Part shown: piece by piece, positions 33,326 to 64,000 of the stretch
How positions within the stretch are numbered: the stretch's first letter is position 1
Layout: every line of letters starts with the position of its first letter
From: Romanomermis culicivorax
Taxonomy: Eukaryota; Nematoda; Enoplea; Mermithida; Mermithidae
Direction: 5' to 3'
DNA length: 64,000 nucleotides
Assembly (NCBI GenBank): GCA_963922205.1
Contig: CAWUHX010000172.1
Span: forward strand, 547,351-611,350
Notes under the pieces: model-generated
Told to the model about the DNA's origin: nothing
What the model saw: the letters and a program-made list of their open reading frames with translations, nothing else
The model's database searches: none
Program-made: the position numbers and the translations under genes

Positions 33326-33344
33326 GCATACTGTAGTCTATGGA

Positions 33345-33359
33345 GCCCTTTAAAAGGGC
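33345..33359 (+). promoter_or_regulatory. TATA-like box of the LTR promoter
   Basis: GCCCTTTAAAAGGGC, a palindrome around TTTAAAA. Transcription would start about 30 bases downstream, near 33385, which makes everything before it U3. Inference from position and sequence. Confidence 0.5.
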
Positions 33360-33871: not shown

Positions 33872-33877
33872 AATAAA
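33872..33877 (+). terminator. Candidate poly(A) signal in the LTR
   Basis: AATAAA downstream of the TATA-like box; the copy at 50586-50591 would serve the 3' LTR. A second AATAAA lies at 33486-33491, and which one is used is unknown. Confidence 0.4.
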
Positions 33878-34238
33878 GGGGATTTAGGTTAACAATCGGG
33901 TCCCCTACAGTAAGCCGTTCCCCGAATGGCACCGTCCCCCATTCCGTAGAATGAGGATTAGGGATTGACACCCCCGACCCGGCCGCGTTGTCCATTATTC
34001 TACAGCATTAACCCCAGGACAAGGCCGAGATACACCAGAGGTTTACCTGTGGTAGTATCAGCTGGGTTGGGTTCCCGAAACAGAGAACATTACTGGAGCC
34101 ACCCCACGGGGTCACAGCATGTCACCTACCGTGTCATGGCCATGTTTCCTATGGGATATGGTACGGGTTTGCCCGTCAATGTGACTGATCACCAAATTCA
34201 GTTAATGTGACATGGCTCCACCTCTGTTTAATGTGACA

Positions 34239-34256
34239 TGGCGAGGCTGGAAAATC
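34239..34256 (+). other. Primer binding site of element 1
   Basis: TGGCGAGGCTGG follows the LTR end with no spacer, as expected for pairing with a tRNA ending CCAGCCTCGCCA. I do not assign the tRNA. Confidence 0.7.
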
Positions 34257-36420: not shown

Positions 36421-36429
36421 GGTGGTGTG

Positions 36430-38298: not shown

Positions 38299-38306
38299 GT
38301 GGTGTG

Positions 38307-40183: not shown

Positions 40184-42512
40184 ATGAAGTCAGAAATTGA
40201 TTTACCTTCACAGATTGAGAATAAGGTCCAAGCTGCATTTGAGAATGCCCTTGGACCACTCAACCAAAAGCTAGAGGCTATGAATGGCAGAAGGCACCCT
40301 CCTGTGTCCAGCTTCATGGCCCCTCCTGCCTTTTCCGGTGCTTTTGGTGAGTCCATAACAGATTTTATATCCCACTTGACCCGCTTCTTTACACTTCAAG
40401 GGGTAACAGAAGCGGATCATGCATATAAGAGTCTTGCCTCACAGGTCCTGCTCTGGCATCCTACCGGGACTTTAGCAGTGGTACTCCGCAGCCTACCCGC
40501 TACGAAGAGTTCACAGCTTTTCTTAGGAGAGACTTTCCAGTAGGGCGTGATTCAGATCTGCATCAGCAGTTGATCCAGGATCGACTGCAGAAGCCGACTG
40601 AATCCGCGATAGTCTACCTTGAGCACCTTAAGAGACTGTCCAGGGTGGCTTATCCGGATCTCGCGACTGACGTTAGGGATTCTATTATTAAACCTATCTT
40701 TCTAAGAGGGTTGAGACCAGTCCTTAGAGATAGTATTAAGTTCAGGGAGTTCACAACTCTTGAAGAGACGCTCAAAGCAGCCTGTTACGCGGAATCACAG
40801 ATTTTTCGGGATGAGATTAGGTATACTGCCCCATCTAATGCTGTTTTCTCTTCAGAACAAAGGACCGCCGACAACGTCAGGTCAATGTCGAATCAAAGGA
40901 GCACCGCTCAACGTCCGTCGGCCACGCCGTCCGACGAGGTTCGACGTTTACAATCGGAGATGGCCCGGCTCACGGCTCACGTTGCGCGACTTACGGCTCA
41001 GCAATCGGCGCCACCTTCGAGAAATTCGACGTCGTCATCGACGCCGTCGACGCGTGTCCAGACCGCCGGCGATCGCCCGTCAGGGGCACATCTACAGATG
41101 TGCTCCTACCATGGACGCTGCACCCACAACGACGCTACTTGCCGGGCACAAAATCCCGATAGCGCCGGCCCTAGCACCGCCTCCGCCACCGGCGCCAGCC
41201 GTTGCTATTTTTGTCGAACGAGGGCGCACCCGACTGACCGATGCGACAGACCCTGCCCGCATTGCCGAAAACTACGAGTGCACCGGGCAACAGCTTGCTC
41301 CAATCGAAATTCGACACTGCCTGGTGAGACTAATTTTGGTAACTCTGGTTATTCTCCTCAGGGGGCAAGTGGAAATTTTCGGAGGTATGCTAATCCAACT
41401 CCTCACGGGATAGGGAACCAATATCGGTCACCTCCACGGCAAAATAATGCTGTAGGGGTTACCGACGGACTTCTTCACCCAGATTTATTTGATCTGGATG
41501 ATGAAGTTTTGGCTGAACACCTGGCGGATCGCTCACAACTGTGTTATCCTGTCTGTGTAATCAGTAGTGGTTTTTCAGCTACGGCAGTGGTTTCGGTGAC
41601 CCCGTTGTCGACTTTTCCGCTGCCACCACCGAAATATGCGACGCCGGTCAACGTAAACCCGTCGGCGACACCGAAAACGACTGGCGACGTCAGCGTAATC
41701 GCGTCGTATCGACCGACGGTAGGTACAACGGCGCCACCGGCACGTGTTATCAACCAGGGACCGCCGCCCGGAATTCCCACGGACTCCGCGTTGGAGGTCG
41801 TCGGTCAATTGGAATCGATGAATCTGATAGGTAAACTGCCTTCTTTTTCTGAAGTTTCAAGTTCACAAAGTAGACATCTTTACAAGTCTCCGGCTTTACT
41901 GATTTCTTGCTTACAGATTCCTCATCCGTCACCGACGCGATGCGGGCTGTTTGGTCAACCGACTTGGCCAAAAAGCATCCGCACCTCCCCTGGGCGCTAC
42001 TCAACGAGCCGTTCGAGGTTGAGGCGCTTACGGCCGCCGACGTCATGCGATCGGCACCGGCGGTGTTGCGGATTTTGGGACCCGACGTCGCTCGACGGGT
42101 GCTCGAGTTTATCGCGGACGGAACTATTCGCGCCACCCCGGTGGACAAGATCCTGTTGGACGGTGAACCGTCATCGCCGGCAGTGGACGCCGTCCGCCGC
42201 GCTGTGGAAAAGGCCAGTCGCAACGTGCGGCCCACAGCAGTTGTTGCCACGTCACCGACGACAACGACGACGGGAGCCCAAACTCTGGCGGCGATTGCAC
42301 CACAGCAACCGGTCGCCAACGCCTTTGGAGAACCGTTGCCCGCCGTTCACAACGCCGTCAACGTCACCGAGGCGTCGCCATTTCCGACGGCTACCGTCCC
42401 GCGGTCCCCGAAGATTGGCGTTCTTCGAGAAGTCCACCCCGGAGGAGGCTTGGTCATCGACTTCCCCGGAGAGGAGCCCGCGTCGTCCGACGACGACGAC
42501 GTCGAAGAGTGA
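40184..42512 (+). CDS. gag: Gag of element 1, with one frameshift and one apparent intron
   Basis: Starts at 40184. The capsid-like region ([16 protein letters not shown], then [20 protein letters not shown]) shifts frame between 40429 and 40540 and continues in the next frame with [13 protein letters not shown] and [15 protein letters not shown]. This is the retrotransposon Gag fold, and the shift looks like a simple one-base lesion. A His/Cys-rich knuckle region follows ([34 protein letters not shown], about 41098-41300). At 41830 the frame meets GTAAAC, and after TTGCTTACAG at 41916 a different frame continues with balanced codon use ([20 protein letters not shown], then an acidic DDDDVEE end) to the stop at 42510-42512. 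The unspliced frame in the same stretch reads as Arg/Ser/Pro-rich noise, which supports real splicing. Gag forms the particle core that packages the RNA. Confidence 0.75.
41831..41916 (+). other. 86-base intron within gag of element 1
   Basis: GTAAACTGCC at the 5' end, TTTCTTGCTTACAG at the 3' end. Removal joins the codon phase exactly (one base left, two taken) and switches to the frame that looks coding. If retained, the frame stays open into the envelope-like gene. Confidence 0.7.
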
Positions 42513-42534
42513 AGCCGCCCGATGGGTGAAAAAT

Positions 42535-44409
42535 GTAAATTTTGGTGTAAATTTGCAGACACTGTTTGTAAATATTTTGTTTGTATTAAATTGGGCCTTC
42601 GTGACACTACTGTTCTTAGGAATGAGCTCTGCAACACATGCTACTCAATACCAATTTTGTGGTCTTTCAAGAAGCGGTCATCCACTTGAGTTACCTCAAA
42701 AAGTTGAATGCAAACCACCAAAATCTTCGTGGAGTCCACGACGCATGAATGTTACAGTATATGTACCTATTTCCGATCCAATCACGACTAAAGCATGGAA
42801 ATGTACCCTACGGAATCGTAAGGTATGCACAAACACTGGTTTTTTCGGATCTAGGGGCATTACTGCGGACGTCATTACTACTCAGCACCTCGCGCCTGCG
42901 GCGTGTACACTAGCACATCGCACAAAGGTGTTTGGTTTACAAAAGCTCGTGGAAATACGTCCTGGCTTTTATAGCACTAACCAAACACTGGAGGTGATGT
43001 ACTCATGGTGCTGCAATGACGTCTGCAAGACAGTGACTAACCTTTTCATCGAGGAGGGACAGGTCGCTTCGTGGGATGGCACTACAGCTCTAAGTACCTT
43101 AGGAGATGTAGGTGGATGCAGTCCCACTGCAGGTCAATGCACTACTCTAGACGGGGTAATTGTTTGGCCTGCCACAAACTTTACAGCACAGTGCCATTAT
43201 CGGCCACAAGGTAATTACACTGCGTCTGTATCAGGGAACCACATCATCATCGATGATTTGCAGGTTGCCCTGAAGATCCCGGGAAACTCCCGTGTGTTTC
43301 GACTGTGTCCTGACCTCCGGTTGAATACAGTACGAACGGATCAGGGTCTTCTTCTACGCATCCACGGAAGATTCAATCTGACCCAGAGGTTATTCGGATT
43401 GGCAAAGGACTCCGTCCCTGACCCCGTCAATGCCAAACTGAATTACCTGGCTCAGCAGATCAAAGAGTCGGAAATTAACAATTTTCGATTCATGTGGCTA
43501 GAGTTGTGTTCTCACGCTCAACGCTACCTTGATCTGACTTGGCAGTTGCTTCGTTTTGACCCTACACTAGGAGCCCGGGCATTCCTTCAGAGGAATGACC
43601 TGACGGCGGAATTCACGGGTGAAGCACTGACAATATGGCCGTGTCAAAAGGTCAACGCCACTTATGTCTATCATTCGTACCGAGTGGGAGACACCTGTTA
43701 CAAGTATCTACCCGTACAGGTTGGCGGTACCATTTATTTTGCCACCCCCGGTGGCCCAGATCTCACTAAATTCAGTCCAAAGGTGCCGTGTGACCACGAC
43801 TTTACAGGAATTTTCCGAAATCGCTCTGGCTGGTTTACTGAATCTGGCACGGTCCATGTGAGCCACATTCCGCTTGAACTGTTCTGGAAGCAGCGATTCA
43901 ACGTCACTCACTTTGACGCTCCTGCGCTCTTTCATGACCAGTTGGCGCTGACCCCTTCAAGTTTTGCTTTCTTTAAACAGTACGTTTACAAGACTGAGCA
44001 AATTGAAGCGGTCTTGAACCGGTTGGTAAACTATACAGCTGGTTTATCCCTACAACCAGATACCCTGTATCAGGCGGTTGCAGGGGTAGGGACTGACATC
44101 AGAGCCTCACTGGAAGGTGTTGGTCTGGCAGCAAACCACATGATTACTGGTCAGCAGCACAACCTCATGCAGGGCTTACAGTCTCTTTTGAGCGGACCAG
44201 TGCAGCTCATCTTTAACACACTTATTACCCTGGCAGTACTGGCCGGTACAGGATTTCTCATCTACGTTGGGATCTCCTATTACCTCAGCTACCGCCTGCG
44301 GAAAAGACAGGTTCGGTTTGTTAGCCAATACTCTCCGTTGAACCTCCTCCGGAAAGTTCAGCGTTGGGTAGGTTTTCATTACGTACGAACGATGTGCCAA
44401 CTCAGTTAG
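42535..44409 (+). CDS. Envelope-like glycoprotein of element 1, placed between gag and pol
   Basis: The frame reads a hydrophobic stretch (42562-42621) followed by SSATHA, like a signal peptide, then a roughly 500-residue ectodomain with many cysteines and N-x-S/T sites, and near the C-terminus one membrane span (about 44209-44290) with a basic tail (YRLRKRQVRF). That is the layout of a type I viral fusion glycoprotein. The pattern of a CC pair, an acidic G-x-V strand, then Cys-x6-Cys and Cys-x-Y faintly recalls the chuvirus/gB-like proteins of invertebrate retroelements, but I cannot assign the family. The first Met in frame (42622) is inside the signal stretch, so translation probably begins in an upstream exon joined at the acceptor TTTGCAG (42558). 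The last 46 bases overlap the start of pol. No internal stop. Confidence 0.75.
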   Translation, partial: VNFGVNLQTLFVNILFVLNWAFVTLLFLGMSSATHATQYQFCGLSRSGHPLELPQKVECKPPKSSWSPRRMNVTVYVPISDPITTKAWKCTLRNRKVCTNTGFFGSRGITADVITTQHLAPAACTLAHRTKVFGLQKLVEIRPGFYSTNQTLEVMYSWCCNDVCKTVTNLFIEEGQVASWDGTTALSTLGDVGGCSPTAGQCTTLDGVIVWPATNFTAQCHYRPQGNYTASVSGNHIIIDDLQVALKIPGNSRVFRLCPDLRLNTVRTDQGLLLRIHGRFNLTQRLFGLAKDSVPDPVNAKLNYLAQQIKESEINNFRFMWLELCSHAQRYLDLTWQLLRFDPTLGARAFLQRNDLTAEFTGEALTIWPCQKVNATYVYHSYRVGDTCYKYLPVQVGGTIYFATPGGPDLTKFSPKVPCDHDFTGIFRNRSGWFTESGTVHVSHIPLELFWKQRFNVTHFDAPALFHDQLALTPSSFAFFKQYVYKTEQIEAVLNRLVNYTAGLSLQPDTLYQAVAGVGTDIRASLEGVGLAANHMITGQQHNLMQGLQSLLSGPVQLIFNTLITLAVLAGTGFLIYVGISYYLSYRLRKRQVRFVSQYSPLNLLRKVQRWVGFHYVRTMCQLS

Positions 44410-47400
44410 ACAGGATCACTCCGTGTTTTGTCGTACTGGTTGACCACAAAGAAACTCCAGCTTTCCTTGATACTGGTTGTCCACGGACTATCATTAGTCA
44501 ACGCCTTCACAAAGCGCTGATCAAAGAGAGTCGGAAGGCGGCGATGGCTTTCCAGCAGCATCACGACTTTAATCCATTGATGAGTATCAATGGTAAAGCC
44601 GTTCATACTCTCCTTTCAGGACCGTATGAGCTAATGTTGCCGGGAACCCGTCAGCCACACACACGAGTGGATATACATCTCCATGTGTGTAAGACTACGT
44701 CTCCTTTCTGGGCACCGGTCGATCTGATTCTTGGATTGGACTTTTTAGAACAATTCCAGAATATTTCGTTTGACTACCAACAACATGTCTGCCGATTGAA
44801 TGCGGTAGAACTACCACTTCTGTTGACAGCAGCCGAGATTGATCAGATCGAACCCTGGTGGGAGAACACACGTTCACTATCAAGGGCCTCCCACAGGTCC
44901 GGGTCTCGATCAAGGTCAAGGACTTCGTCCCTCTCTCGGCCACCCTGGCGAGCTTCCTCCATTGCCTCATCCCGTGGGTCAACCAGAGGAAGTAGGACCT
45001 CTTCTAGACGGGCTAGTGGTCATTCCATGGCCAGGTCAGGGTCAAACTGCCCTCGACCACCGCCCGGAAATTCTCCAGTTACACTAGAGAAAGGCCGTTT
45101 TCGCGAGCCTAGTGACTCTGATGCACCTGCATCCCCTGTACTAGAGGTGCCACCACTCTCTGATGTTGAGGTTGAATCACTAGGAGCTACTCAGAGCTCA
45201 GGAGAGAGGTCAGATCATGTACTCACTGTTCAGGTCCACCCAACTCCTGAGGCCAATCCGGAAACATCGGTTGGCTATGCTCTGGTAGGTTTACTCCGAC
45301 GCACTGGCTTACCCATACCAAGGCGAACCAATGCGCCAGAGTCGAGCTTTGATGACTCTGTACCTGACCCAGGTCATGTCGTATCAGCTTTCTACCCCAC
45401 TGAGATGAGGACCCCTCATATCAAGGTTCTACTGAACAATTGGGTAGAGGCCAAAGCTCTAATTGATACTGGAGCTGTTTTCTCACTCTTGGATCACAAG
45501 TTGGCGGTCCAGTTACCCGACTTGGTACTCACAGAGACTAGGGCTCGCCCCATAGCAGCCAATGGGTCCCCGATTCTACTGCTAGGCTCTGCCTATGTCA
45601 CGGTGACAGTGGCTGATGTCTCTGAACGGATTCAAGTCCAGGTTCAAGAGAATTGTTCAGCTGAACTAGTCTTGGGGACGAACTTCCTCGGACGTTTTAA
45701 TTGCGTCAGCTTGAGCTGGGAGAAATCCTTTCTCCAGTTCAAGGAACTTCGAGTTCCGTGTGAAGGCCTCATCCACAATCCACCTTCTGCTCGTGGGGCG
45801 CTACCCTTGCAGGAGTTGATTGTCCTTGAGCCTCGCTCGCTAACACAATTCACTGCACCCGTACCTTCAATATATGCAACTGTGCCCGAAGTAGCTTTCT
45901 TCCCTAAGCCTCTTTTGGGTCAACAACGTAATGTATACTTTGCTGGTACTGTGAGTACTGTGACCAATGGTCGCATACCCCTACAGGTAGTTAACCCAAG
46001 CACACACGCAGTGGTTCTCTACCCACACACGACCATCGGTCATGTGCAGATGCACACTGATTCCTCACAGGGATCAGCGGTCAAGGCTGATACCATTCTT
46101 GACCGTAAGTGGGTTGAAACCAATGCTGTGATATCTTCAGATATCTCCTCACAGGACAAAACAGCGTTGCTCGATCTGCTGGTCGCATTTACTGACCTCT
46201 ACGCTGTTGATGAAAAGGACACAGGTTCCACTGACCTCGTGCACCATGAGATCAGCACGGGTGACGCTCGCCCAGTCCGCCGTTTCCCTTACCGCACCGC
46301 GCCCAAGGAAAAGGATCTCATCATACAAGAGGTCAAAGCGCTCCAAGAGAAAGGTATTATTTGGCCTAGCACTTCCCCCTGGGCTACTAACACCGTCTTG
46401 GTTCGCAAGAAAAATGGGTCACACCGGATGTGTGTTGATTTTCGTGGTCTCAACGAGGTCACGAAAAAGGATGTCTACCCTCTCCCACGGATTGATGATA
46501 TCCTGGACACACTCAAGGGTATGAAATACTTTACTACCCTTGACCAGGCTAACGCCTACTGGTCCATACCTATTGCCGAGGCAGACAAGGAAAAAACGGC
46601 GTTTAATACACCTATTGGACTTTACGAGTTCAACTATCTGCCTTTTGGTCTCTGCAATGCCCCTGGGACGTTTCAACGCCTCATGGATCTGCTTCTTACA
46701 GGACTGCAGTGGCGCACTGCACTGACCTATCTCGATGACATCTTGGTGTTCGGGAACTCTCACACCCAGATGCTTGAGTGCCTGACGGATGTGTTTACGC
46801 GTCTCCGTCAGGGTGGAATGAAGCTCAGACTGAGCAAGTGCAAGTTTTCGCACTCTGAGGTAGAATATCTCGGGTACCGCATCTCACAGAAAGGTCTCGA
46901 ACCCGACAAAGTCAAATTGGCTGCCGTCCAGGATCTACCCATTCCACAAAACGCTAAAGACATCAAGTCTTTTCTTGGTCTTGTGTCTTATTATAGGCGT
47001 TTCATCCCTGGTTGCGCTCGGCTCAGCGAGCCTCTGACCAAGCTCTTACGGAAGGAAGTTACCTTCCAGTGGTCAAAACCTCAGCAATCGGCGTTCGACG
47101 AACTCCGAAGGCTGTTGTCGAACCCTCCTGTCCTGCGCCATCCGGACTTTACGAAATCCTTTATACTTCAAACTGATGCAAGTATTTCGGGGATAGGAGC
47201 AGTTTTAAGCCAGTTGGACGAGAATGGATACGACCATCCCGTTGCGTACGCCAGTCGAGGGTTAACAGCAGCTGAGAAACACTACACTATTACGGAGTTG
47301 GAGACTCTCGCTGTTGTCCATTTCGTCAAGCACTTTCGGCCATACCTCTTTCAACATGAGGTGGTCGTTCAGACCGACCACACTGCTGTTAAGGCTGTGT

Positions 47401-49064
47401 TGGAAAAACCGAACCCTTCGTCCCGGATAGCTCGGTGGGGCCTCGCGTTAGCTGAATTCAAACTGACTATTCGGCCGCGGAAAGGTCGGTCTAATGGTAA
47501 TGCCGACGCATTATCACGCCTTCCTGATCCTAATTCCCTTGCCGGGGAGAGTATTGACGATATTCCCCTATACAGACCCGAGGGAGAAGTTATGATGATT
47601 TCCGATGGTGCTCAGCGCCTGGCGAACTCATCCCAAAGGACCACCAATGGTGCGCAGCACCTGGCCAGGTCTGAGTCTTATGCAGAGATATCACAGGATG
47701 CGCAGCACCATGACCTTCTCGCAACTCAATTCGAGGATCCGGAATTAGCCTCCATTCTCAGGTCACTAAAACCCTACGGTGATCAGAATGATGTTAATGG
47801 CTACCACCTGTTGGATAACATCCTTCAGAAGTGGACAGGCGAGTCCAACAAGATTGTTGTCCCTCGTTCAATGGTTACTACCATTATTGAGGCTCATCAC
47901 AACGACATTCTTGCTGGACACTTTGGTGCGAAACGTACCGCGAGGCTTATAGCCCGCAGGTACCACTGGCCTTCCCTCAGTGCGGACGTCAAGTCCTTTT
48001 GTCAGCGGTGTGATCTTTGCCAACGGAATAAACCTGCGAGACAGAAGACCCGTGCAACTCTGAAACCGATCTCCATTACGGGCCCGTTTCATCGAGTCGG
48101 TGTCGACTGTATGGTACCAATGACCACTAGTGAAAACGGAAACCGATTTATTGTAGTTTTTATAGACTACTTTACTAAATGGGTTGAAGCTTTCGCTACT
48201 CCGGACATCACTGCGCAAACTATAGCTCGACTTTTTGTTACTCAAATCATCTGCAGACATGGGGCGCCGCAGATTCTTCAGTCTGATCGTGGTACTGATT
48301 TCACGTCCAAACTGATGACTGAAATCACTGCCATTTGTTCAACTAAGAAAATCCACTCCACCGCTTATCATCCCATGACAAACGGAGAAGTGGAAAGAGC
48401 TAACCAAACGCTAGCCACACGGTTACGTATGTATGTCCACCAAGGCCATACTGATTGGGATGAACACCTGCCGTACTCTGTGTTCGCTGTCAACATTAGC
48501 ATGAATGAGTCCACAGGGTATTCACCCTTTGAGCTCATTTATGGTCATACGCCCATGCTACCTGTTGATGGGGCGCTCTCATTCAACCCTCCGGCCCATA
48601 TCATAGATGTTTCTACTTATGATATGGAGGTCAAACGGCATTTTAAAAATGCCTTGACCTTGATCCAGAACCGAATTGAGAGATCACAGGCGGCTTATGC
48701 CTGGTCCTACGATCACATGGCATGAGATGTCTCATACAAAGTTGGCGATCAGGTGCTCAAACTGCGCACCACCGGCAAACGTGGTCTGACGCCTGAATTG
48801 CTGCCCATTTATGATGGGCCCTACTTTGTAACGAATGTGGCACACCCCAATGTCACTATTCCGCTTGAGGCAGATCAAGAAGATACTGTGCATGTCAATC
48901 ATCTTAGACACTACGTGTCACCTGATCAGCCTACTGAAGTAGAGGAGATACCTTCCACTTCACAGGTAATTGAGACAGCACCTTTGTTGATTCTATCAAC
49001 AAACCAAGATGTTACACAAGATCTCATAGACCCACATCTTGATGCAGAGGTCTTCGACCCGTAA
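44364..49064 (+). CDS. pol: Pol of element 1: two proteases, RT, RNase H, integrase, with one in-frame stop
   Basis: Residues are counted from 44364, the first sense start in frame; real entry is likely by splicing. Protease 1 has DTG at 36-38 and LGLDFL near 129. An Arg/Ser-rich linker follows (about 173-230). Protease 2 has DTG at 368-370 and LGTNFL near 437. RT carries YLDD at 789-792 and [12 protein letters not shown]; RNase H starts with LQTDAS (Asp 938). Integrase has the H-H-C-C finger from 1178 ([10 protein letters not shown] to CQRCDLC) and the catalytic triad Asp 1248, Asp 1308, Glu 1342. An in-frame TGA at 48723-48725 cuts off the integrase C-terminal domain, which continues in the same frame to 49062. 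The domain order is Ty3/Gypsy. The enzyme set would process Gag, copy the RNA and insert the DNA. Confidence 0.88.
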
Positions 49065-49525
49065 TCAAGTAGCTCTTCTCTTCTTTACTTACGGACGGGG
49101 TCGTCCTTTTTCGAAGGACCGCCGTGCCCCTCACAAACTACCCACTTCTGTTCCAAGCTGGAATAGCAGCGTAAAGAAGAGAATGAGCAGCGATCAATGC
49201 ATCTAAACTAGGGTATTGCTTCACATTGCAGGCGCATCCATGCGATAGCCTATATCTCGCCTCTAAAATTTTTTCTTTCAGTCTCGTTTCAGATTTCACA
49301 AATCAACCGACAATTGGCAACTTCACCGAAGGGATCAAATGACGTCAGCAATTTCACGCATCTCCAATGGACGTCAGCAACTCCACGCAACATTGACACA
49401 ATTCCACAAACCAGAACATACCGAAAAACCACTGAACCAGCAACCACTCGCCACCACCCTCACCTGAACGTTTGACCGTCGCAGCCGGCACAAGGACGAG
49501 GACGCCCTTTTTCGAAGGACCGCCG
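49065..49525 (+). other. 3' untranslated region of element 1
   Basis: CCTTTTTCGAAGGACCGCCG occurs twice, at 49105-49124 and 49506-49525, the second copy touching the 3' LTR. Two TGACGTCAGCAA-type motifs lie near 49340 and 49371. There is no clear purine tract for plus-strand priming. Confidence 0.6.
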
Positions 49526-50952
49526 TGTCACGTGCCGACGGATTTCGTCGAATGTAACGTGATTCACATCACAATTTTCCATTATGTTTTTCGTTATGTT
49601 TTTGTTACAGTAATTTACATCAATTTTGCGTTTCGTTTTTATACTTTTTACATGCAATTTATGTGTGTACTTTTTATGTTTATTTCTGTTGCTTTTGCGC
49701 ACATTTATTTCCGTTTCGATTTATTATTTTCAATCGCACACGTAGACTACGGTATGTACCCGCTAGTCAAGAATTTCCGTTAGAGATAAGCTCTCCGAGC
49801 TCATCGCTGTAATTAGAGCACAACGTGCACTTCTTATCAGTAAAAACTAGCGACGTTTCACAACGTGAAACGACTAGTTGAAATTCTTCACTAGTGACGT
49901 TCCTATGTTAAGCATGGAGAGTGAAAACTCGCCCCAATGCTTAACGTTGTGAACAGAAAATGTCTATGTGATCATAGGCATCTTCTGCAACGATTTCCGC
50001 TGCAGAAGTTAGCTTGGGGGAGTGTTAACTCCGCCCAAGGCATACTGTAGTCTATGGAGCCCTTTAAAAGGGCATGTTTTGTGTGTTTTTGGCACTCTCC
50101 TTGAGCCTAACTGGTTTCCCTCGTTTTAGCTTCACGTCGCGTCCGCCGTCGATATTTTTATATATTTCATTGTTGTCAACTGCGCCTTGCCGTACGTCGA
50201 ATAAATTACCATATTCTCGTCCCCGACCTACACATACATACACTCGCCTACAGTAACCCGACCGTAGGAACCCGTCACTGTCGCCGTTAGTGTAGAGACC
50301 CGTCGCCCCTCGCCGAGGAAACGTTAGTTGTCGCCGCCTGCCGTTTAGCAGCCGCCGAATCCCCACGCCGAATCGCTCGGAGTTCGTTCCCACATCGCCG
50401 TCCGCAGGACCCCGCGTTTGACCCCGAACCCGTCGCCCAGCGCCGAGTAACTTGAGAAGGAGTATCGTGAGTCCTCTCAGGGGTTATTGTTGTTGAGGGT
50501 TTATTTGTGGGAGTCTCCCCTAAGCTAGTTTTCCCTCGGAAGGACCCTCAGTTAAGAAAGCCCTCAGACCCTTAAGGTCAGGGCCAATAAAGGGGATTTA
50601 GGTTAACAATCGGGTCCCCTACAGTAAGCCGTTCCCCGAATGGCACCGTCCCCCATTCCGTAGAATGAGGATTAGGGATTGACACCCCCGACCCGGCCGC
50701 GTTGTCCATTATTCTACAGCATTAACCCCAGGACAAGGCCGAGATACACCAGAGGTTTACCTGTGGTAGTATCAGCTGGGTTGGGTTCCCGAAACAGAGA
50801 ACATTACTGGAGCCACCCCACGGGGTCACAGCATGTCACCTACCGTGTCATGGCCATGTTTCCTATGGGATATGGTACGGGTTTGCCCGTCAATGTGACT
50901 GATCACCAAATTCAGTTAATGTGACATGGCTCCACCTCTGTTTAATGTGACA
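49526..50952 (+). repeat. 3' LTR of element 1
   Basis: Same termini and length as the 5' LTR, followed directly by the AACC duplication. No ordinary purine-rich tract precedes it. Confidence 0.97.
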
Positions 50953-51953: not shown

Positions 51954-52522
51954 TGTTGTAGTGTGTTTTCCGCCGATTTTCGCTATTTTGTCAAAGCGCG
52001 TATGAGGCCCGCAGGTGGCAAGTGGAGCGAGCAACGCGGACCATTAGCAGCCGTCTTACTGTAGTGCACGTCGGTACGCGTGCGCTGGTCTCTCTCCATT
52101 ATTATTCATTTTTCGCTATTATTGTATTTTCTTATATACTAAGTGTGCGCCCCGCCGGCCACTTTTATATTTCACTATTCGTCGCCTCCCACCACGCAAC
52201 TTCCCTTTCTCGTCCCAGTGCATGGGAGTAGATTGTTCGCTTTTCTCGCCAGTTTTTCGTTTTGTACGTAAGTTTTCGTTTTGTTTTATTGCGTAATATT
52301 AAAGGTAGAAAATTCTCTCCTTCCGTTTTATGCAATAAGGGAGACAATTAAGGAAACTCATCTTTTCCTTAATTGGTGGGGATATTAGTGTTGGGTTTAA
52401 GTACAAGTAATATAGTTAATCGGGTAAATGTGGGCCTGGGAAACACATACATTAAGGACGAACCCTGGAATCCCAATCCTGCCTGTGACTTATCAGCGCT
52501 CGACCAAAATACAAATACAACA
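51954..52522 (+). repeat. 5' LTR of element 2
   Basis: It starts TGTTGTAG and ends TACAACA, inverted termini. A TATATA lies near 52133. 569 bases. The left edge is inferred from the termini alone, since the second LTR is outside. Confidence 0.7.
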
Positions 52523-52523
52523 C

Positions 52524-52541
52524 TGGTGACCACTTGGATTG
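52524..52541 (+). other. Primer binding site of element 2
   Basis: TGGTGACCACTTGG begins one base after the LTR end. The tRNA is not assigned. Confidence 0.6.
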
Positions 52542-52659
52542 CACGCTTCTTTTCCCCGCCGTTGCGTTGCATCCGACTACGCCAGCAAGCCTCAAAATTC
52601 AACCACGCCCTAGCTGCGCCCGAGGTTACAAGAAAGGTTATTACACCCTCTGGAAAAAG

Positions 52660-54945
52660 ATGCCAAAAGTGAGTCATATGCCACCAGATTTCACCCGCCT
52701 TCCGTCACGATCCAGTTCTCCCAATGCGGCCACAGCCATGCGCCGCACTTTAAGTTTTGATCAGATGCTCTTGCCACGACTGACAAATATTGCGCAATCA
52801 TCAGCAGTACCCACGGTAAGCCTCCCGCCCCATAATCCACCCTTGTCTACTTTTAGTACACCTGCGTTGGACGGGACTGCACAACCGCAAACATCGCTCA
52901 TTCCAACAATCACGGCGACAGCCGTTTCACAAGCGCTGCGGCTTCTGAGTCAAAACCCTTGCACTGCCACAGTCAACTGCCCTAACCCGCCGGCCGTATC
53001 ACAAATACTGCCGCCGAGCACTGCCCCCCAAACTAACAATGACCAAACCCTCACCAGAACTGACTCTTCCGAATCCTTCGTCAATATCGAACCACTGCAG
53101 GCCCCAGCCGCCACCCGCGCTTCAACAGACAACCACCGCAACAGCCTAGTAATCGCAAATGCCAATGAAGTTCGTAACTTTCGAATTGAGGCGTGTGACG
53201 CATTATATCAACTCAGCACCGTCGCCGCATGTATAACCAACAATGTTCCCACTGTCCAAAGGATTGATCAAATTATCAGCGCCGTTTCAGATCAATTTCA
53301 AGCCCAACAATTACGTGTTCAACGCAAAATTCAAGAACAAACTAAGGCTACAAACGCGCGCTTCGCCATCCTTGTGGAACAAATGCAACAGTTGATTTCA
53401 ACGACCGCCGCAGCAACTAACGCGCGTAATCCGCCTACACTAAGACCACCCCCGGTGTCCTCATGGTTTCACAGCGAGGAAACGCGAGATATTTACATCC
53501 CAAACAAAACTCTCCATGATACTGAACTGGCCCAGGTCTTTGGTTGACTGCCAATCCAGGTCAAACCTAAAGCGCCGTCCATGGATGCCCTATATAACAA
53601 CGAATTTTCCCGAACCGCAGGCGGTGAGGAAGACTTACCCCGGCCTGCGCCCCAAAGACGCCAGATGCCCGGGGCAAATCATTTTGGCTTTTCAGACTAC
53701 CTACCAGATGATTATTACGACCACCCGCAGCCACGGTACGAAATGCCGCGCACATCGCACCGCAAAGAAGATAGCCGCATCAAAACAATTGTCGACAATA
53801 TGCACCCGTTGATTATTGATGGCGCCGCGACCAATAAACGCTTATTACGCTTCTTCATTCGCCTGGAAAACGAGTTTGGATACAATGCCTCCAACCATGT
53901 AAAGATGAGCGCACTACGCCGACTTACCCATGATACGTTGAGCGATATGATCCAAGACATGAGGCGATACGAAGATGCCAAAAATTTGCTCATGTTCCAA
54001 TTAGCCCCGGATTGCAATCAAATGACTCTCAAACGCGAGCTTGCGTCAATTACCCCCGAAGTCGGAGAGGAACGTGCCGCGTTTTTGAGTAAGGTGATGA
54101 CTTATGTACAAATATTGTATCAGCATGAAGACCAAACCTTTCGGCACAAACAAGTAATTGACACCTTTTCAACAAAAATGCCTGTTTTCTATCAATTAAC
54201 GATTGGCGAACAAGCAAAAAGTTTTACAAATGTCCAACAATTGGCCAACGCCGTAGCTAAAGCCCGTAGTGTCCTCAATGCAACCAAAGCCGAAATTGGA
54301 ACCGCAGAAAGACCAATCCTCGTGAACCAAGCCGATCCGGAAGTGCAATCCCTAAAGTCTCTGCAGCCTTTTGACCGCCGTTTTGAACACCGCCGTAGCA
54401 TGGACCGCCCTCAAAACTGCTATCGCGAGCGCTCCCTTTCTGCCGAGCGCCGACCCCAAAATTCGGCACCACTACCTACTAAATTCGTCTCTTTCCAACC
54501 GCAGCCGCTCTAACAACTTATGCAACCGCCACCACGCATGGAGATGCTTTTAGAACAATTGATCCAAAGATATAACTGCGACTATGAAGAACAAAAATCG
54601 CGCCAATGCCCAGATGAAAACCCACTGGATAACCCGCAGCAAAGCCCTCCCTTTCAATCCCAAACCCAGGAACAGTACGCTGATCGTTTCGACCGATCCG
54701 CAAGCCGAGACCGCCTTCGCATCGCGCAACCCACTGGCCTTTGGTGCGACGCCCACAAATCCGGCACCTACAACACAGAAGATTGTGTCTGGCTCAAACG
54801 GCAAAATGCTCAAAAAATGACTCGGCAAGAGTCCAACCGCCCAACCTACATCACCCATTCACGGCAAACCAACTTCCGGACCAACTCCAACGATATTCGT
54901 GGCCAGCGCGATTGGAGACCCCACGGCGGAGCACCACCTCAATGA
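52660..54945 (+). pseudogene. gag: Gag of element 2, interrupted by in-frame stops
   Basis: One reading frame runs from the Met at 52660 with stops at 53545-53547, 54511-54513 and 54943-54945; coding quality continues past each. The first third is Ser/Thr/Pro-rich, followed by a helical region ([20 protein letters not shown]). The capsid-like core follows ([20 protein letters not shown], then [15 protein letters not shown]). Late in the frame WCDAHKSGTYNTEDCVW is a Cys-x2-His-type knuckle like that of element 1. Gag would form the particle core. The stops imply loss of function in this copy. Confidence 0.75.
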
Positions 54946-57900
54946 GGCGCAAACCACTCCCGTGGCGCACGAAACCATTTTCAGGAAAATAATTTTATAC
55001 GGCGCCCAAACGATTTTGTTCAGAACACCTACGCCGTCTACCCGAATCAACAATTTTTGGTGCCATGGGAACAACATATCCACTACAACGCAGTGCCGGC
55101 CCCATACATTACAACACCTACAGATTCATGGAGCGCCAGTTTTCAGGCCTCTGAACTACAACTAGCACTACCCCCCTTACCCCCGCCCAGGGCTGTATCC
55201 ACACCTGCCCTCGAACCACGCGCTACCAATCAATCGACTTCCGCCGCTAATATGGTCATCCCGTCCAAAGAAATAGCCTCCGCCGCACCGATTGTGAGCC
55301 CCGGGATAGTCTGTTGGAACAAGACCGGCCATGCTTTTCAAGATCCGTGCCACATTCGCTCGTCCGTCTGCCAAATCGACAATCTCACGCTGTCTTCAAA
55401 GATTTTCATTCGCAAATTCGCCTCTACAAGAGCCTTCCAAATTCCCATCAAAATCGGAGCCGTCAAAGCACACTCCCTCATCGATAACGGTGCCCAATGC
55501 TCTGTATTGTCCTCAGGCTTAGTCAAACGCGCTTTTGACGTTTCGACAAGCAATCGCTTCAACTCCCGATTTGCGGAAAAATCAAAGTAGCCAATGGCGC
55601 TGTTGTCAACGCTCATGGCCCAGTAGTCGTTACAATGGAATCCGCGTTCGGTGAACACATTATCAAGTGCATAATCCTCGATGACGACGGGAACGATCAA
55701 TGTATCATTGGCACTGATTTCCTTGCACATCTGGATATCCATGCTATCTTGAACTTCAAAGAAAATTTCATCGAGATCCAGGACGTAAAGCTACCGCTCA
55801 AAGTAATCACCATGGTCTGCTCCCAAACGGAACTGTTCTTAAACCCCGCGAATGACAACGTTTTGGAAGAAATCCCCGAAGAAGAGCGAGTAAGCTTCTA
55901 TGACGATAAATCCGATATTTTCAGCCAACCCAAAGAAATCGAGGCCAAACAACCAATTCGCCAAGCTCAACCTAGTCCACACCAACCGCCCACCTGGCGG
56001 CTGGAGGTTACCGAGCTAGCCGAACCAATTTTCCTCATCCCCCAAGTATGGACTTGGATTTCGCCGCATTGTCAACAATGGGTCAAAAGCACCGTTTTCC
56101 CCACGACAATGGGGACAATTCCAGACCTGATCATACAACCACTAGCCACTAACAGCATAGCTGCAGAACTCCCAATTGAAACTGCAATCCTCATCATCAC
56201 TAACGGTCATTGTCTGCTACTCTTCATAAATAATATGCCGAATAGCATCAAACTCCGCCCGAACCAGCTTATCGCAATGGCAAAACATACGCTAGGTCAC
56301 GCGGAACCATCTGTCAATTGCCAGGTAACGACCGCTGCAGCAGACCGCAACCTGACTGACCATGAACCCGCAGCTTATGATAAATCGTTCCCTTGCCACA
56401 CCTTGCAACAAAAACTGGAATTCGCCTGGAACAAGATGACCGAAAAAACTTACGTCACCGCCACGCAAAAGGAAAAGGCTCTCTCCATGCTTCGACAAAA
56501 CCGCGATGTTTTCAGCCTGCCTGGTGACAAACCAACTACCACCAGCTAATTGACAGTCAGTTTTGACACCCGCACCGCAAGGCCCATTTCCAGCCACTAT
56601 TACCATGCTGCGATGGAACAAAGACCAATTGTATGCCGCCATATTCAAGAAATGCTCGACAATGATTTTATCGAACAATTCTGCTCACCCTGGGCTGCAC
56701 CACTGTTCCTGGTAAAGAAAAAAAGATGGATTTTGGCGACCTATTGTCGACTACCGTAGAATAAAGGATGTCACACCCAGGGATAAATTTCCAATCCCGC
56801 GCATTGACAATTACTTGGATGCGATGGGACAAGCAAAATTCTTCACTACGTTGGATCTCAAAGCCGGGTACTGGCAGGTACCTCTCGACGCTGACTCATG
56901 TGATAAAACAACCTTTATCTGCCAAGAAGGTTTGTTCCGATTCAAAGTTTTTCCATTCGGCTTGAAAAACGCGCCCACCGAATTCCAGCACCTAATGGAA
57001 AGAATTCTCCGCCGTACATTTGGAAGATTTGCCTCATCTACATTGATGATATTATAATTTTCTCGAATTCATTTGAAGAACATTTGGAACACCTACAAAT
57101 CTTTTTTGACGCCCTCCCCACAGCGAACCTCACGCTTCGGCCAGACAAATGCAACCTCCTGCCGCCGCAAGTCAAATTCCTGGGACATCTCCTTAGCCCC
57201 CGCGGAATTGCTGCCGATCGGGATAAAGTCAAGGCCATCGCCCAATATGAATTCCCAAAGACCAAAAAAGGTATGCAAAGTTTTCTAGGCTTAGTTCAAT
57301 GGTGCAAACGATTCATCCTGAACTTGGCGACCTTGTCCAGTCCTTTGTACAGACTCCTACAAAAAGATGCTCAATATATCGCCAGGGACGAACATCACGC
57401 CACGTTTGAAGGTATCAAATCAGCCCTTACGTCATCGCCCTTTCTCTGCTACCTGGTCTATGATGGAAAAGCTCAATTCGTAATTCAAACTGACGCCAGT
57501 AGGACCGCCATCAGAGCAATCTTGTAACAAGAAAACAGAAATGATCAACGGGTCATCGCCTACAATAGCGGCATACTCACTGATGCCGAAACTGGCTACA
57601 GTACAACTGAGCATTAATGCCTTGCCACTGTCTATGGCTTCCGGATGTACCGCCATTATGTTTATGGCCAAAAAGTTATTGTCCGCACAGACCACAAACC
57701 CCTCAAATGGCTAAAAGATGAAAAACACTGAAACTCGCGCCTCCAACATTTCGCGATCAGCTTCCAAGATTACGATTATAAGGTTGAATACATTAAAGGT
57801 AAAGACAACGCTTGTGCCCATTTTTTGTCCAGAAAAGATGACCCCGACAAAACACCGATCCCGAACACCGAAAACTTAACCGCTAAGATTTTCCATAAGG

Positions 57901-59396
57901 ATTTCCACCCTGCTGGTGCAACCACGGCTGCCGACTTAACGGTACGGGATAAACTCCCAGCAGAGGCTACACTCGCCACGGAAGTTGATGTAGACGTTAA
58001 CGCCGTCACTCGTGCAATGACCAAAAAGACCATCAGTGAACCCACACTCTCCAATTCAATGCCATTGACCGCCGACTATGCACCGCCTCCAGCAGAAGCC
58101 ATAACAATCGCCTCTCATGGCGGAGTTTTAAAAGCCCAAGCCACGGACCCCGCAATTGCAAAAATCATCGCCACCCTCCAAACGGACAACGCCGCAAAAC
58201 ATCCACCTATTTTCTTTACTGAAGATGGTCTCCTATATCACCAGATCAAGGATAATCACCAATTAGTCGTCCCGGCATCTATGGTCGACCAAACCCTTCA
58301 CCAATTCCACAGCGCGAAAATCTTGAACCAGGAAGGATCTAACCGCACCCTAGCAGCAATCAAAGTTCATTTTTGGTTGCCCGGCACGGAAGAAAACGTT
58401 CGAGATTGGGTCAAAACTTGCAAGATTTCTCAACTAACAACACCGCGAATGTCACCGCCTCCGCCGCTATTGCCGATCCAACCAAAACACCCTTTTGAGA
58501 TCATGGCAACCGACATTGTCAATATTTCGCTGGTAGGTGAGAAACGCCCATACGTTATTGTTTTTCAGGATTATTTTACGAAATAGGTTTCCACGCATCT
58601 GATACCTGACTAAAAAGCCTCAACAATAGTAGAATGCTTCGTGAACAACGTCGTCCTAATGCAGGGTAGCCTGCTTGTCCTCCTCTCGGATCAAGGCGGA
58701 TGTTTCACGTCAAAGCTTATGCAAGATATTTGCGATCTAGTCAAAATACGAAAAGTCAAAACGACGGCATACCATCCCCAGTGCAATGGAATTGTCGAGC
58801 ATTTCAATCAAACATTGATTGCCCAATTAAAAAAATACACCGCCGACGACCCAGACAACTGGGAGTGATACCTGCCTTACACTGTATTCACCTACAACGC
58901 CACGCCTCATACAGCTACACGTCATTCACCCTTCAGTTTATTACGAGGCTACAAACGGCGCATTACTTTTGACTATGACTGCGCCCACCGACTCACATTG
59001 CCACTCAATTACGATGCTTACCAGCATATTCTCACGACAAAGCAACTCAAGATGCATGAGATGATAAAAGCCAATCTCAATTCAGCAGCCGCAGTCAGCA
59101 AAGAATATTTCGACCGAAAAGCCCGAAAACGTGATTTCCCTGTCAACGACCTTGTTCTTTTGACCAATACACCCAAGGCGAACAAAATCCAACCCGACTT
59201 CATTGGACCATTCCTCATCACGGACGCATCTCGCACAGCCGAAAACGTAGTCACCATCGATTCAATCGATACGCCCAGCTGACTGCAAACTGTTTCCATG
59301 ATGCGATTGAAACTGTTCATACCGCGACCAGCTAAAGAAGCATTCGAACTCGAAGCAGATGGACCACGCCTGCCTCACACTTCCGGCCGCCAATAG
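54946..59396 (+). pseudogene. pol: Pol of element 2: protease, RT, RNase H, integrase, decayed
   Basis: Protease lies near 55430-55560 with the active triad changed to Asp-Asn-Gly (55483-55491). The frame then shifts near 55560. RT is in pieces: [11 protein letters not shown], a shift near 56730, FFTTLDLKAGYWQVPL and FPFGLKNAPTEFQ, a shift near 57025, then YIDD at 57039-57050 and KFLGHLLSPRGI. RNase H begins IQTDAS near 57485. Stops at 57525, 57615, 57729, 58584, 58611, 58866 and 59280. Integrase shows a decayed zinc finger (second Cys pair broken) and the core words ATDIV, LLSDQGGCF and NGIVEHFNQTL. Domain order is Ty3/Gypsy. Not functional as it stands. Confidence 0.85.
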
Positions 59397-59478
59397 TTTG
59401 CTTTGAAATTTTTCCTTTGTGATACGGCGCTCATCACGCCGAGTTGTACATAATTTTTGCGTTTGTTTAATTTAGATC

Positions 59479-62400
59479 ATGGCGACCTTGTTGACGAGAC
59501 AGCGATGCAGATCACGTATTCCCCAAGCAGTAGCTTCCCCTCGCACCATTCACCACCAGCAAACTTCACCTATTTTACAACATTGCATTACACACCTCCC
59601 CGGTCTCCACACTTTTACCCTAGGAGGGAGTTTCTTATTTAATGTTAGGTTCTGCTCAGCGCGAGGCCATTCGGTTTATTTCCGCCTGACCCTTTGCCAC
59701 TATCACTCTCATAAGACTAATTGGAAAAGGTTGATTTTGGTCCCCATTAACATAGTGGTGTTGGTGTTGCTTTTCATAACCATAGTGTTGCATTTTCTTA
59801 CTTTACACTTTCTTCACCTTTCAGCAGCTTATTCTCTTATTATTTTATTTCTACCTTTTGCTTCCATCCGCAATAGTCGCATTTTCCAACTGCTCTTAAA
59901 AAAATTTTTTTTCAAAATGACGACTCCATTTACCACGTCCATCTCCACGGCCGATGAGCCCATCCATGAACATTACGTACGTTGGGCAGAGCAACAGCCC
60001 CATCAAAACGATTTAAGCTTCACCTGCAACGATATTTTTATTTTTTACGCCTACTTTGCTTCTATTTTTGCATGCCCTTTTGCTTGGGACCCCATAGGAA
60101 ACCCCCACAACCCATGGTCAGCCGCTGTGATCCCATCATCGTCAAGTTGTGGCACCACTACACCACAACCGGCTGCTGCTTTGATTTCCACATACAACAA
60201 CTCCCGCTATCTCGCTATGGTAGCTAGATCCAGTTGCCAAGATGCGCCCATCAAAGTGACATCACTGCCCAAGCCACCGTTTCTCAAGAGCGTGTTTCCT
60301 CTTTTCAAACAGCAAGCAACGCCACATTTTTCTCTTGGTTCCACTCTAAAATCACCCTTTTGCCTCCATTTCGCTCCCTCGATTTGGTGCCCAATGTGTC
60401 ATATGTCAAATATCGCGCTCACTCTTGTTTAAGAAAACAACGTCAAACATTTGATCTGCGCCCCTGATTTGGAATCGTGGCACATCTCTATGTACGCCCG
60501 ACCTCCCAATGTGTTGCCGCCCCCGATATTGCTCTCATCCGGAAGTTTAGGGCAGGCTTTGGCCACCCAACCCACACCAAACTTCCGAGGCTACACCCTC
60601 ATCGGCTTCGACACCGAATCGATCATGGCCGCAGACATGAAAAATTTTCAGTTCACCGTGCCTATGCCAGTTGACTCCAGGGCGTCTAGCTACCCATGAT
60701 ACATGCAACTTGGGTTTCCTAATGGCACAATGTTTGTCTTCTTCGCTCTATTCTCTCTAGTTGACGGCAAACACACCACCGTAGTTTCTTTCAATAGAGC
60801 GGACGACTGGGCGGGAATATACGCTCTCTTGGGTACTCAATTTCGAACCAACCGCTAAAAGAAGAATAAAGATCCCGTAGTCAAAGCGATACATTTTCAT
60901 GCATACCGTGTAATCGGAAATATCAACATCTCCCCACTGATATACGAGCTGGCTCGAAAAATCGGATTCTTTCCCAAAAAACGTATGTTGAAAGCCACCG
61001 TTTCCCCCATGTGGGCGCTGGACATTTCCAAACTCACGCTACGCGATATTTCAACAATGCGATATCTCAACAACCCGGCGACATGGTTCTTGCAATCGGA
61101 TGTCCTTGCCTACCCAGCTCCCGACGCTTACTATCCGCTGTTGTTGTTTTTAGCTTTCGGTCCTTACGGCTTCATCCCCGAGGTTTACAACGCCCCGGCC
61201 TTGTTTCCCCTCGACTCGCTGGACGCCACCCAAATCAACCACCTGGCCGAAATAATCATCGCCACTTTTCACAATGTCGCATTGTCGGATGTTCTACCCC
61301 CCGACTCCGCCGATCAAGTGTATCCCACTATATCGCAAATTGCTCTCCCCGCGATTATGCGAGACGAAGTTCTTTCCGCTTATATGTTTTTCATGTACGA
61401 TTGCACATCGTCGGACCACGGTTGGTCTTTTTGTTTAGGAATGGTGGCCAACGGTTTCCGCAGGGTTAAAGGCTTGACGCATACGACTCATCCCAAGCTG
61501 CTCACTGCCCCGAAAGCGCCCAAGAAGAAGAAAAAGAAACAGAAGGATGAGTGGAACAAATCACCGGACGTCTCCGATGAGGAAGACCCAGCACTCCAAC
61601 CGCGATCGTTATTTGAGGACCCCAAACGCCTTCAAGCAGCCATTACCTCGGCCATGAAGAGTAACCTGACTCACCGGATCATGGAACTTCTCAACTTCCC
61701 CGTTTCGCTGTTGTACAAACTCGCTATCTGGGACCACCTTCAATACGATGACCCCGCATTGCCACCGATTTGGCACAAAGTTGATGATGTATGGATTGAA
61801 TGCGTTGCCGCTGATCAGCCACTGCGTGAGCAAACTTATCAGGGTACCCATTACCATTATCACCCCTCCACCCTTCTTAATTTTTTACAGGTGGATGGAG
61901 ATTGGTTCCGACAGCTAACTTCTTTCATGCCATTGGCTGCGCTTTCGGCTTCTCTGTGTTCGGCCGCCGAATACGCCTTCGTGAACAACTTGTTGCTCCG
62001 CCACGCCCAGAATATGAATTCCAAAACGCCCGCCATTTTCTACGACTGTATGTGGGACGGCGCAGATGGCAACCCCAAATCGCGCCTCACCGATTGGATA
62101 AATCCCATCCCCGAACGTGAGCTGTCTTTCACCAGCAAACATGGAACTTACATTTGCAACCGGTTCCTGCTAGGCCCAATCATCTTCAACGAAGAATTTT
62201 ATATGGAAACAACCATTGAAGAAATCGAAATTGATGAATCTAATTATACGGCTAAATCGCACAGCCGTTTCCATCTTTATTCCACGTTCATTGCCATCAT
62301 CCACTTTCAAAATCAATTTTCGTTCCCCGCGCTGGTGTATGCTTACCCCTTGCCAACTACCGATTTGGTGCACACACTCACCACCGAGGAACTGCTTGAC

Positions 62401-64000
62401 CGCCCTATTGACATCAAAGTGGAACCTGCGGATGACGAACTCTTGGACACGCCAATTTTTGACCTGAACATAGCAAAGCTGCTGCCGTCAACCCAGGTGT
62501 CGGCCCTTCCTATGCCAGCTGCGCAGTCTGACATTACTGCGACAGCTACACAAATCACTGACTTTTTGAAGCTGACTCTCGACGAAATTTCAAGCATCGC
62601 CCCAGCACCGATGGACGAATCTACTCCCATTCAACCTGCCGCGATGGATTCCGAAACAACCACGACCACTGATCAAATGTTGATGGACATCCCCGAAGGA
62701 AGCACTGTAGATCAGTCCACGTCGATGGACATTGTTCCCGCAGAACCCGCAACTACGATGCCTGCAACGGCACCCGCCGTCAATCCGTGCATCTATTTAG
62801 CCACTCCGGCAGTTCTCCCCAGACCCCTGATCATAGCCATCATTGCCACTGCCAGGTATAGTGCTCCTGTCCGTTTCTCGCAACAAATCATTTCAGCTAA
62901 CCAATGGGACGCACTGGCTGCAGCGCTTACCGCGTATCATTTTCCACCACCACCGCCCGGTATGTTGTTCCCCGAACATCACTGGATGGACTACCCCGAT
63001 GCACTTAAGGAAGAGATACAGCACATTTTGCTGCTGCCTCGAATGTTGATAGCCCCGGCTCCTCAAATCACTCAAACGGCTCCGGTTATCGCCTGAAAAG
63101 CCGTGCAACCACCAGTTACATTACTGCCCCCGATCACGGTACAACCGCCACCAGTGCCGCAACCACCCCCGCCTGCGACTCTAGTGCCACCGACGGCACC
63201 TGTGGACGTTCAAACCCCACAGGCCCCCAGCACGTCCGCGCCGGCTCTAGATCGCTATGGCCAGCCTATTAGAAAGCCCAGTCGCTATGAACATTCCATG
63301 AAACGCAAACAACACCTTCACGAAGAAGCGGAATATCATAAGTCCCACAAAACACGCACAACGGACGAACCCTGTGCCAAGGGAACGCCGCCACCCAGCA
63401 CCTCACCTGCGGAGTGCAGCAAAACACCTAGCGAACGAACAACTCGTCGCTGCCAGCAACGCCAGAAACAAAAGGCCCATGAAGAAGCTGGTAAATCTTC
63501 CCAGACCACATCCACGCCGCAAAAGAAAATTCCATCAACGAAAACAGCAGCGCCAGCAGCACAAGCGCCGCCTGCCTGCCAATCAGATAGTCACCGTTCA
63601 CGCCACGAGTGATACTCTCGTGATGATGGCCACTGCAAAGACAGCCGTCAAACTCAAGCAACCAGTCGCGATAGCCGTCAACAAGAACGCTGCGACGATG
63701 CACCACCCCACCATACTCAGAGCAAACAAACACGCCAAGTGCACTCGACTGGCTTCTACGAAGACGCGCACCGGCGCATTTCTGTCGGTCACCGCCAAAG
63801 TTGTCAGATTACATAAGCCCGCTGCACAGGGACGCCAAAATTCAAAGACGTATAGAGGCTTTGAAAAACCCACCGAAAAACGTTTTCAAGGCTCCGCTCC
63901 TGCTGCCGCCTCCCATGGATGTAGAACCCACCCTGTCATCTGCAGCCTCGATTCCACCTACGGTCACGTCACAGCCGCCCAGGGCCCCCACACCCATTAT
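59479..64000 (+). pseudogene. Accessory third coding region of element 2 with DEDDy 3'-5' exonuclease motifs
   Basis: A coding region of at least 4 kb, 83 bases after pol, mostly in one frame. Likely start at 59917 (Met after TTTTTTTTCAAA), or 59479. The exonuclease region lies at 60590-61190: motif I LIGFDTES (Asp 60610, Glu 60616), a strand YMQLGFPNGTMFVF, a motif II region near 60880-60930 without an evident Asp, and motif III YPAPDAYYPLLLFLAF with Tyr 61111 and Asp 61123 in the Y-x3-D spacing of WRN, EXD2 and RNase D. A Lys-rich stretch (61519-61560) then leads into about 450 residues of unknown fold and a Pro/Thr-rich tail that goes on past stops at 63094 and 63610 to the window edge. 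Other breaks: frame changes near 60230 and 60440, TGA at 60697, TAA at 60856. It is not a known part of Ty3/Gypsy elements; the role is unknown. Confidence 0.65.

Follow-up and report, generated by a model that had tools for sequence, protein, structure and literature searches.

Accessory genes with the signature of DEDDy nucleases are known from retroelements of bdelloid rotifers. In the Juno and Vesta long terminal repeat (LTR) retrotransposons, as well as in Athena elements, a third open reading frame (ORF3) is of this type (Rodriguez, Kenefick, Arkhipova 2017, PMC5408684), and later papers repeat the description (PMC6431247, PMC5718144, PMC6338049). According to the available excerpts of these papers, on which all statements made here about the rotifer elements are based, the LTR elements acquired a DEDDy ORF3 at least twice, and the authors favor exchange between retroelements as its source. 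Both 3′-end processing and a MUT-7-like role have already been discussed for these genes (PMC5408684). Here, we describe a comparable arrangement in a nematode. The DNA analyzed, referred to as the window, is a stretch of 64,000 nucleotides from Romanomermis culicivorax (contig CAWUHX010000172.1, positions 547,351 to 611,350). From approximately 51.95 kb to beyond 64 kb, it holds an LTR-type retroelement on the + strand, element 2. Judged from its sequence, element 2 represents a family of Ty3/Gypsy-type LTR retrotransposons that is present in many copies in this mermithid nematode, which we take to be a mosquito parasite; the copy in the window is decayed. A long third frame follows pol in env position (ORF3; 59917..64000, + strand, continuing past the window end). 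Our favored reading, to which we assign a probability of roughly 60%, is that this decayed Ty3/Gypsy-type element carries in its env slot a DEDDy-type nuclease that would target nucleic acids of the element itself.

The original prediction stated that Ty3/Gypsy elements normally have nothing like this; the DEDDy ORF3s published for bdelloid rotifer LTR retrotransposons (PMC5408684) speak against so general a statement. Capture of a host exonuclease, as that prediction proposed, would be one possible origin of ORF3, in place of which the rotifer authors favor exchange between retroelements for their elements (PMC5408684). Juno and Vesta share with element 2 a Gag, a pol with protease, reverse transcriptase (RT), RNase H, and integrase, and a separate env-position ORF3 with a DEDDy signature, the function of which is unproven. 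They differ in having a dUTPase between the protease and RT, whereas the window piece 55539-56546 of element 2 gave no Pfam match. Moreover, the ORF3 of element 2, unlike those of Juno and Vesta, reaches far past the nuclease-like domain into a middle region and a basic tail, its signature residues are D-E-D-D whereas a change from DEDD to DEED is described in the rotifer paper (PMC5408684), and the host phylum is Nematoda instead of rotifers. The Athena/Terminon Penelope-like elements also carry a retroelement-borne DEDDy accessory nuclease, but they belong to another retroelement class and are telomere-associated and endonuclease-deficient (PMC5408684, PMC6431247). Among the PF01612 exonucleases (RNase D, NrnC, WRN, Rrp6, and MUT-7), motifs I, II, and III and the QL strand occur in the same order as in element 2, and HHalign aligns the family in register with a mixed RNase D/NrnC-type set. 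The element domain differs from these enzymes in scoring below the Pfam cut-off, in lying inside a retrotransposon ORF, and in the wider spacing of motif I from the QL strand and of motif II from motif III. Among the papers listed by our literature searches for such a gene in a nematode or a Ty3/Gypsy element (in one case 20 of 3,856 matches), none reports it from a nematode. Given the comparable accessory genes known from rotifer elements, the arrangement appears to be another instance of the same trick, this time in a different animal phylum. The kind is already known from rotifers, and what appears to be new is its occurrence in a Ty3/Gypsy-type family of a nematode, with an ORF3 that is long and made up of several parts.

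Protein homologue searches, each scoring about 8000 candidates, identified 20 proteins related to ORF3 (best local identities 51-79%) and then 72 in a second search. Among the matches listed, all are from R. culicivorax and none is a rotifer protein. The 79 R. culicivorax proteins considered below were selected by similarity to ORF3, such that element copies without ORF3 are invisible in this set. In 10 of the 79 gene models (P0014, P0017, P0018, P0019, P0032, P0050, P0052, P0058, P0071, and P0076), gag/pol pieces lie upstream and ORF3 downstream, colinear with the window. One gene model of this kind is weak evidence because software joins gene models. It is because ten of them join gag/pol pieces to ORF3 that we consider ORF3, in agreement with the original prediction, to be part of the element family, and we assign it as the env-position gene of this retrotransposon family. 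The similarity of the relatives to the window is 0.684 for the exonuclease part (58 proteins) and 0.697 for pol (9 proteins), and subfamily clustering gives essentially one group. The GC skew is -0.20 to -0.24 across gag, pol, the spacer, and ORF3, compared with -0.04 and -0.08 in the neighboring element 1. The proposed common codon style of gag, pol, and ORF3 is only weakly true: the relative synonymous codon usage of ORF3 correlates at 0.38 with gag and at 0.25 and 0.38 with two pol pieces, versus 0.15 and 0.26 with element 1. ORF3 fragments also appear in public gene models, in P0020 together with an astacin domain and in P0045, which is named Autophagy protein 5. In both, annotation has probably fused a piece of the transposon to a host gene.

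The first conserved domain of ORF3 (60574..61190, + strand) is delimited by motif codons, family columns, HHalign, and motif shuffles. As originally predicted, the best reading of this domain is that it is a DEDDy-type exonuclease, probably a strongly diverged one. All five DEDDy residues are present in the window copy (first base of each codon: D60610, E60616, D60805, Y61111, and D61123). The motifs named in the original prediction could all be located, i.e., motif I, GFDTES, at 60604-60621, the QL pair at 60706-60711, and the motif III Y-x3-D at 61111-61125. In addition, the second D of RADDW (60805-60807), which had not been named, matches the motif II Asp of the relatives. The D-x-E, motif II D, and Y-x3-D elements follow in this order both in the window copy and in the family columns, where the residues are kept as D in 15/19, E in 17/20, motif II D in 25/34, Y in 37/38, and D in 32/38 proteins; the Q of the QL strand is present in 29/29. 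Nine copies cover all five positions, four with DEDYD and five with one or two changes. All 120 NrnC-type exonucleases examined match the motif-order pattern, as do 18 of 200,000 shuffled versions of P0010, a copy with an unbroken exonuclease-like domain, although the pattern was devised after viewing the family. Unbroken domains of this kind are present in other copies as well.

The family profile, with an effective diversity of only 1.7, was aligned by HHalign with a set of five PF01612-type chains, namely RNase D, a NanoRNase C, a putative 3′-5′ exonuclease, an ancestor of diDNase, and the uncharacterized BAD_0989, and reaches a score of 24.1 (P 0.0064). The alignment is in register over the QL strand, the Asp of motif II, and YAALD, each of which meets its counterpart, and it does not extend to motif I. 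Of 300 column-shuffled profiles, one reached a score this high, and none of the first 200 did. With a wider set, 1 of 200 shuffles scored as high, the alignment there being at motif III only. Moreover, PF01612 weakly matches P0002 at motif III (E 0.13). The DEDDy judgment rests partly on motif order and context, beyond these significance tests.

A number of results weigh against the nuclease reading. The HHalign probability is only 5.9% for the five-chain set and 3.2% for the wider set. With RNase D alone, 2 of 200 shuffles scored as high and the alignment is out of register; NrnC alone is equaled by 9 of 200 shuffles and PolA alone by 96 of 200. In the hidden Markov model search, PF01612 reaches at best 12.5 bits against a cut-off of 23.6 and is matched by 1 of 27 members; three ORF3 pieces of the window were scanned, the 52-residue piece 60700-60855 not being among them, and none gave a match above cut-off. 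Neither Pfam nor NCBIfam gave anything above cut-off on the exonuclease region. A PDB sequence search with single proteins gave no match, and a PDB profile search gave five weak ones (E 0.26 to 9.7), none named exonuclease. Two AlphaFold models of P0010 have a mean predicted local distance difference test score of 46.6 and 42.6, and their best Foldseek matches (E 0.23 and 0.28) are unrelated proteins. The catalytic columns are conserved at 0.74-0.97 relative to a column mean of 0.82, i.e., with no excess, in what are mostly decayed copies. Finally, no 3′ LTR lies within the window, and both the identity of the enzyme and its mechanism of action are what we infer from position, recurrence in copies, and the five signature residues in order, which are themselves observed.

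In the fold check suggested by the original prediction, no match to an RNase H-like exonuclease rose above noise. The sole exonuclease among the best 50 Foldseek matches of each model is RNase AS (E 1.4, target template-modeling score 0.12), and because the confidence of the AlphaFold models is so low the outcome is uninformative either way. In the family-library scans mentioned above, the Pfam matches above cut-off lie on fused pieces (RNase H, astacin, and protease). PHROGs have no cut-off; there, 8 of 23 members match a family of unknown function (best E 0.013), and a single one of the 23 matches a second family (E 0.00069). Among viral contigs, 35 stretches fit a pattern, and none encodes a relative. 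Conservation as proof of catalysis was considered and rejected, since the catalytic columns are no better kept than the mean.

In a working copy, the ORF3 domain would be a 3′-5′ exonuclease of the RNase D/WRN class. As an env-slot protein, the product might accompany the particle or cytoplasmic RNA, where the nuclease could trim 3′ ends; element RNA, the primer transfer RNA (tRNA), or complementary DNA would be the likeliest substrates. The basic tail fits nucleic-acid binding and may serve to bind nucleic acid or the particle.

How do other explanations compare? One is that the domain folds like a DEDDy exonuclease without acting as one, serving instead in nucleic-acid binding or assembly in the manner of the catalytically inactive Maelstrom/EXD1 class; it might then take over an env function or an accessory structural one. 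The unexceptional conservation of the catalytic columns would suit such a protein, and the excerpts of the rotifer paper name Maelstrom and EXD1 as inactive derivatives (PMC5408684). However, the catalytic residue is the majority residue at all five positions, and DEDYD is intact in four of nine copies, the losses fitting general decay; we regard this explanation as unlikely.

A second explanation keeps the nuclease and gives it another target. ORF3 would be a silencing suppressor that degrades or trims unprotected 3′ ends of small interfering RNAs (siRNAs) in a nematode that silences transposons without Piwi-interacting RNAs. The available excerpts of a study of nematode silencing describe R. 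culicivorax as without PRG-1/Piwi and without 5′-triphosphate small RNAs, and the clade I nematode Trichinella spiralis as using silencing of the RNA-dependent RNA polymerase/Dicer type, with Dicer siRNAs and without the 2′-O-methylating HENN-1; DNA methylation machinery is reported in R. culicivorax too (PMC4323106). The same description makes the parallel with MUT-7 of Caenorhabditis elegans, drawn in the original prediction, a weak one. Because silencing in R. culicivorax differs in these ways, an siRNA-directed nuclease is an attractive idea, and a 3′-end nuclease would presumably suit unprotected siRNAs. On the other side, both function and substrate would be inferred, and silencing roles for the rotifer ORF3s are mentioned only as possibilities in what is available of that paper (PMC5408684). 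We consider the suppressor role distinctly unlikely.

The third explanation is that ORF3 encodes no nuclease at all, but a lineage-specific retroelement protein with chance motifs. The failure of PF01612 to rise above its cut-off, the low five-chain HHalign probability, and the poor structure models all agree with this. Chance would, however, have to place five residues and the QL strand in order, as only 18 of the 200,000 shuffles do (for a string chosen after the fact), and also give the in-register alignment with the mixed profile, which leaves this account improbable. The weakest proposal, that ORF3 is a host gene or the gene of another element beside a truncated pol, would fit the missing 3′ LTR, but no LTR-like repeat lies between pol and ORF3, the strand skew is uniform, and the ten gene models together make a chance neighbor very unlikely.

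Returning to the favored reading of a decayed element with an env-slot nuclease, the window copy itself is unable to make the whole ORF3 protein. The original prediction of a long coding region after integrase holds in that a coding-type frame is there, but this frame is interrupted by in-frame stops at 60430, 60697, 60856, 63094, and 63610, and it also shifts near 63.78 kb and, by eye against P0044, near 60.4 kb. The exonuclease-like domain is divided into three stop-separated pieces and is without a short stretch that relatives have. ORF3 most likely starts at the ATG at 59917, which is favored because P0031, P0044, and P0053 begin with similar sequence there. The ATG at 59479, proposed earlier, is in frame upstream and a possible start, but a less likely one. 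Downstream of the exonuclease-like domain, the middle region (61191..62400, + strand) is conserved in the family and is without a recognized domain; its two halves are aligned by 60 of the 79 proteins at 71% identity and by 57 at 65%, and 60859-63093 gave only a sub-threshold Pfam match. The proline-rich part and basic tail (62401..64000, + strand), recognized from alignment and residue composition, are aligned by 22/79 and 15/79 proteins (68% and 62% identity), and a 126-residue piece of this part contains 11 R, 13 K, 15 S, and 14 P.

Between integrase and ORF3 lies a T-rich spacer (59397..59916, about 520 bases, + strand), delimited by AT skew (-0.24 versus +0.14 in pol) and by poor alignment of relatives. 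Only two proteins align within it, over 17 residues, and it looks more spacer-like than coding. A splice-acceptor-like sequence, TTTAATTTAG, ends at 59475; this is a resemblance only, but it would permit a spliced ORF3 message. The absence of an LTR between 59396 and 59917, as claimed in the original prediction, is borne out by a direct-repeat search and blastn, neither of which gave a convincing repeat of the candidate 5′ LTR in 59280-64000 (best blastn match 29 bp, 79%, E 0.027). An LTR separating pol from ORF3 was rejected on this basis.

At the other end of element 2, the candidate 5′ LTR (51954..52522, + strand, starting at 51954 or 51955) has the ends TGTTG...CAACA. It is rated as tentative because the window is without a 3′ LTR; of matching LTRs at both ends, only this candidate falls inside the window. 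Just after it, TGGTGACC at 52524 is a possible primer-binding site, for which no matching primer tRNA was found in the window. The gag/protease region (52523..55590, + strand) consists of stop-separated pieces of one frame, and no Pfam match above cut-off was found on the two gag pieces scanned. The relative P0058, which has aspartyl-protease Pfam domains, aligns at 55123-55889, placing an aspartyl protease upstream of RT. The pol region (55539..59396, + strand; RT, RNase H, and integrase with a GPF motif) was assigned by Pfam and is broken by stops and frame changes. RVT_1 (1.9e-18) and Integrase_H2C2 (1e-09) are above cut-off, RT_RNaseH_2 (8.1e-06) and rve (0.0023) below it, and DFIGPF lies within the piece 58869-59282 at the integrase end. 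The domain order RT, RNase H, integrase is that of Ty3/Gypsy pol.

The window contains several other features. A second LTR-type element (32812-49825) is bounded by 300-nucleotide repeats that are 99% alike, and it includes a viral fusion glycoprotein domain of the Monjiviricetes type (PF24664, 9.4e-16). This domain shares its frame with a gag-like region and lies upstream of pol, where an env-like gene is not usually located. Inverted repeats of 169 nucleotides, 98% complementary and 1356 nucleotides apart, at 9930-11623 resemble the terminal inverted repeats of a short DNA transposon. Two arrays of diverged tandem units of ~98 bp are present at 11808-12339 and 31927-32800, and a long simple repeat at 3590-4143 translates as KEKKR or SFLFF. 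An exon-like ion channel piece at 17090-17794 (PF07885, 4.7e-09) may belong, together with 13489-13950, which has no Pfam match, to a two-pore potassium channel gene of the host.

If the favored reading is correct, DEDDy add-ons of LTR retrotransposons occur in a second animal phylum, in a much longer ORF and in a many-copy family. The role of ORF3, be it end processing, a particle function, or counter-defense against silencing, becomes testable with natural unbroken copies, in a host that silences transposons differently from C. elegans. The long-read genome assembly of R. culicivorax, 359 Mb in size, is described as 68.2% repeats in the available part of its report (PMC10879605). Should the suppressor explanation hold instead, it would help to explain how the family spread in a genome with a reported repeat content of 68%, and the nuclease ORF3s of nematodes and rotifers would become candidate counter-defense genes.

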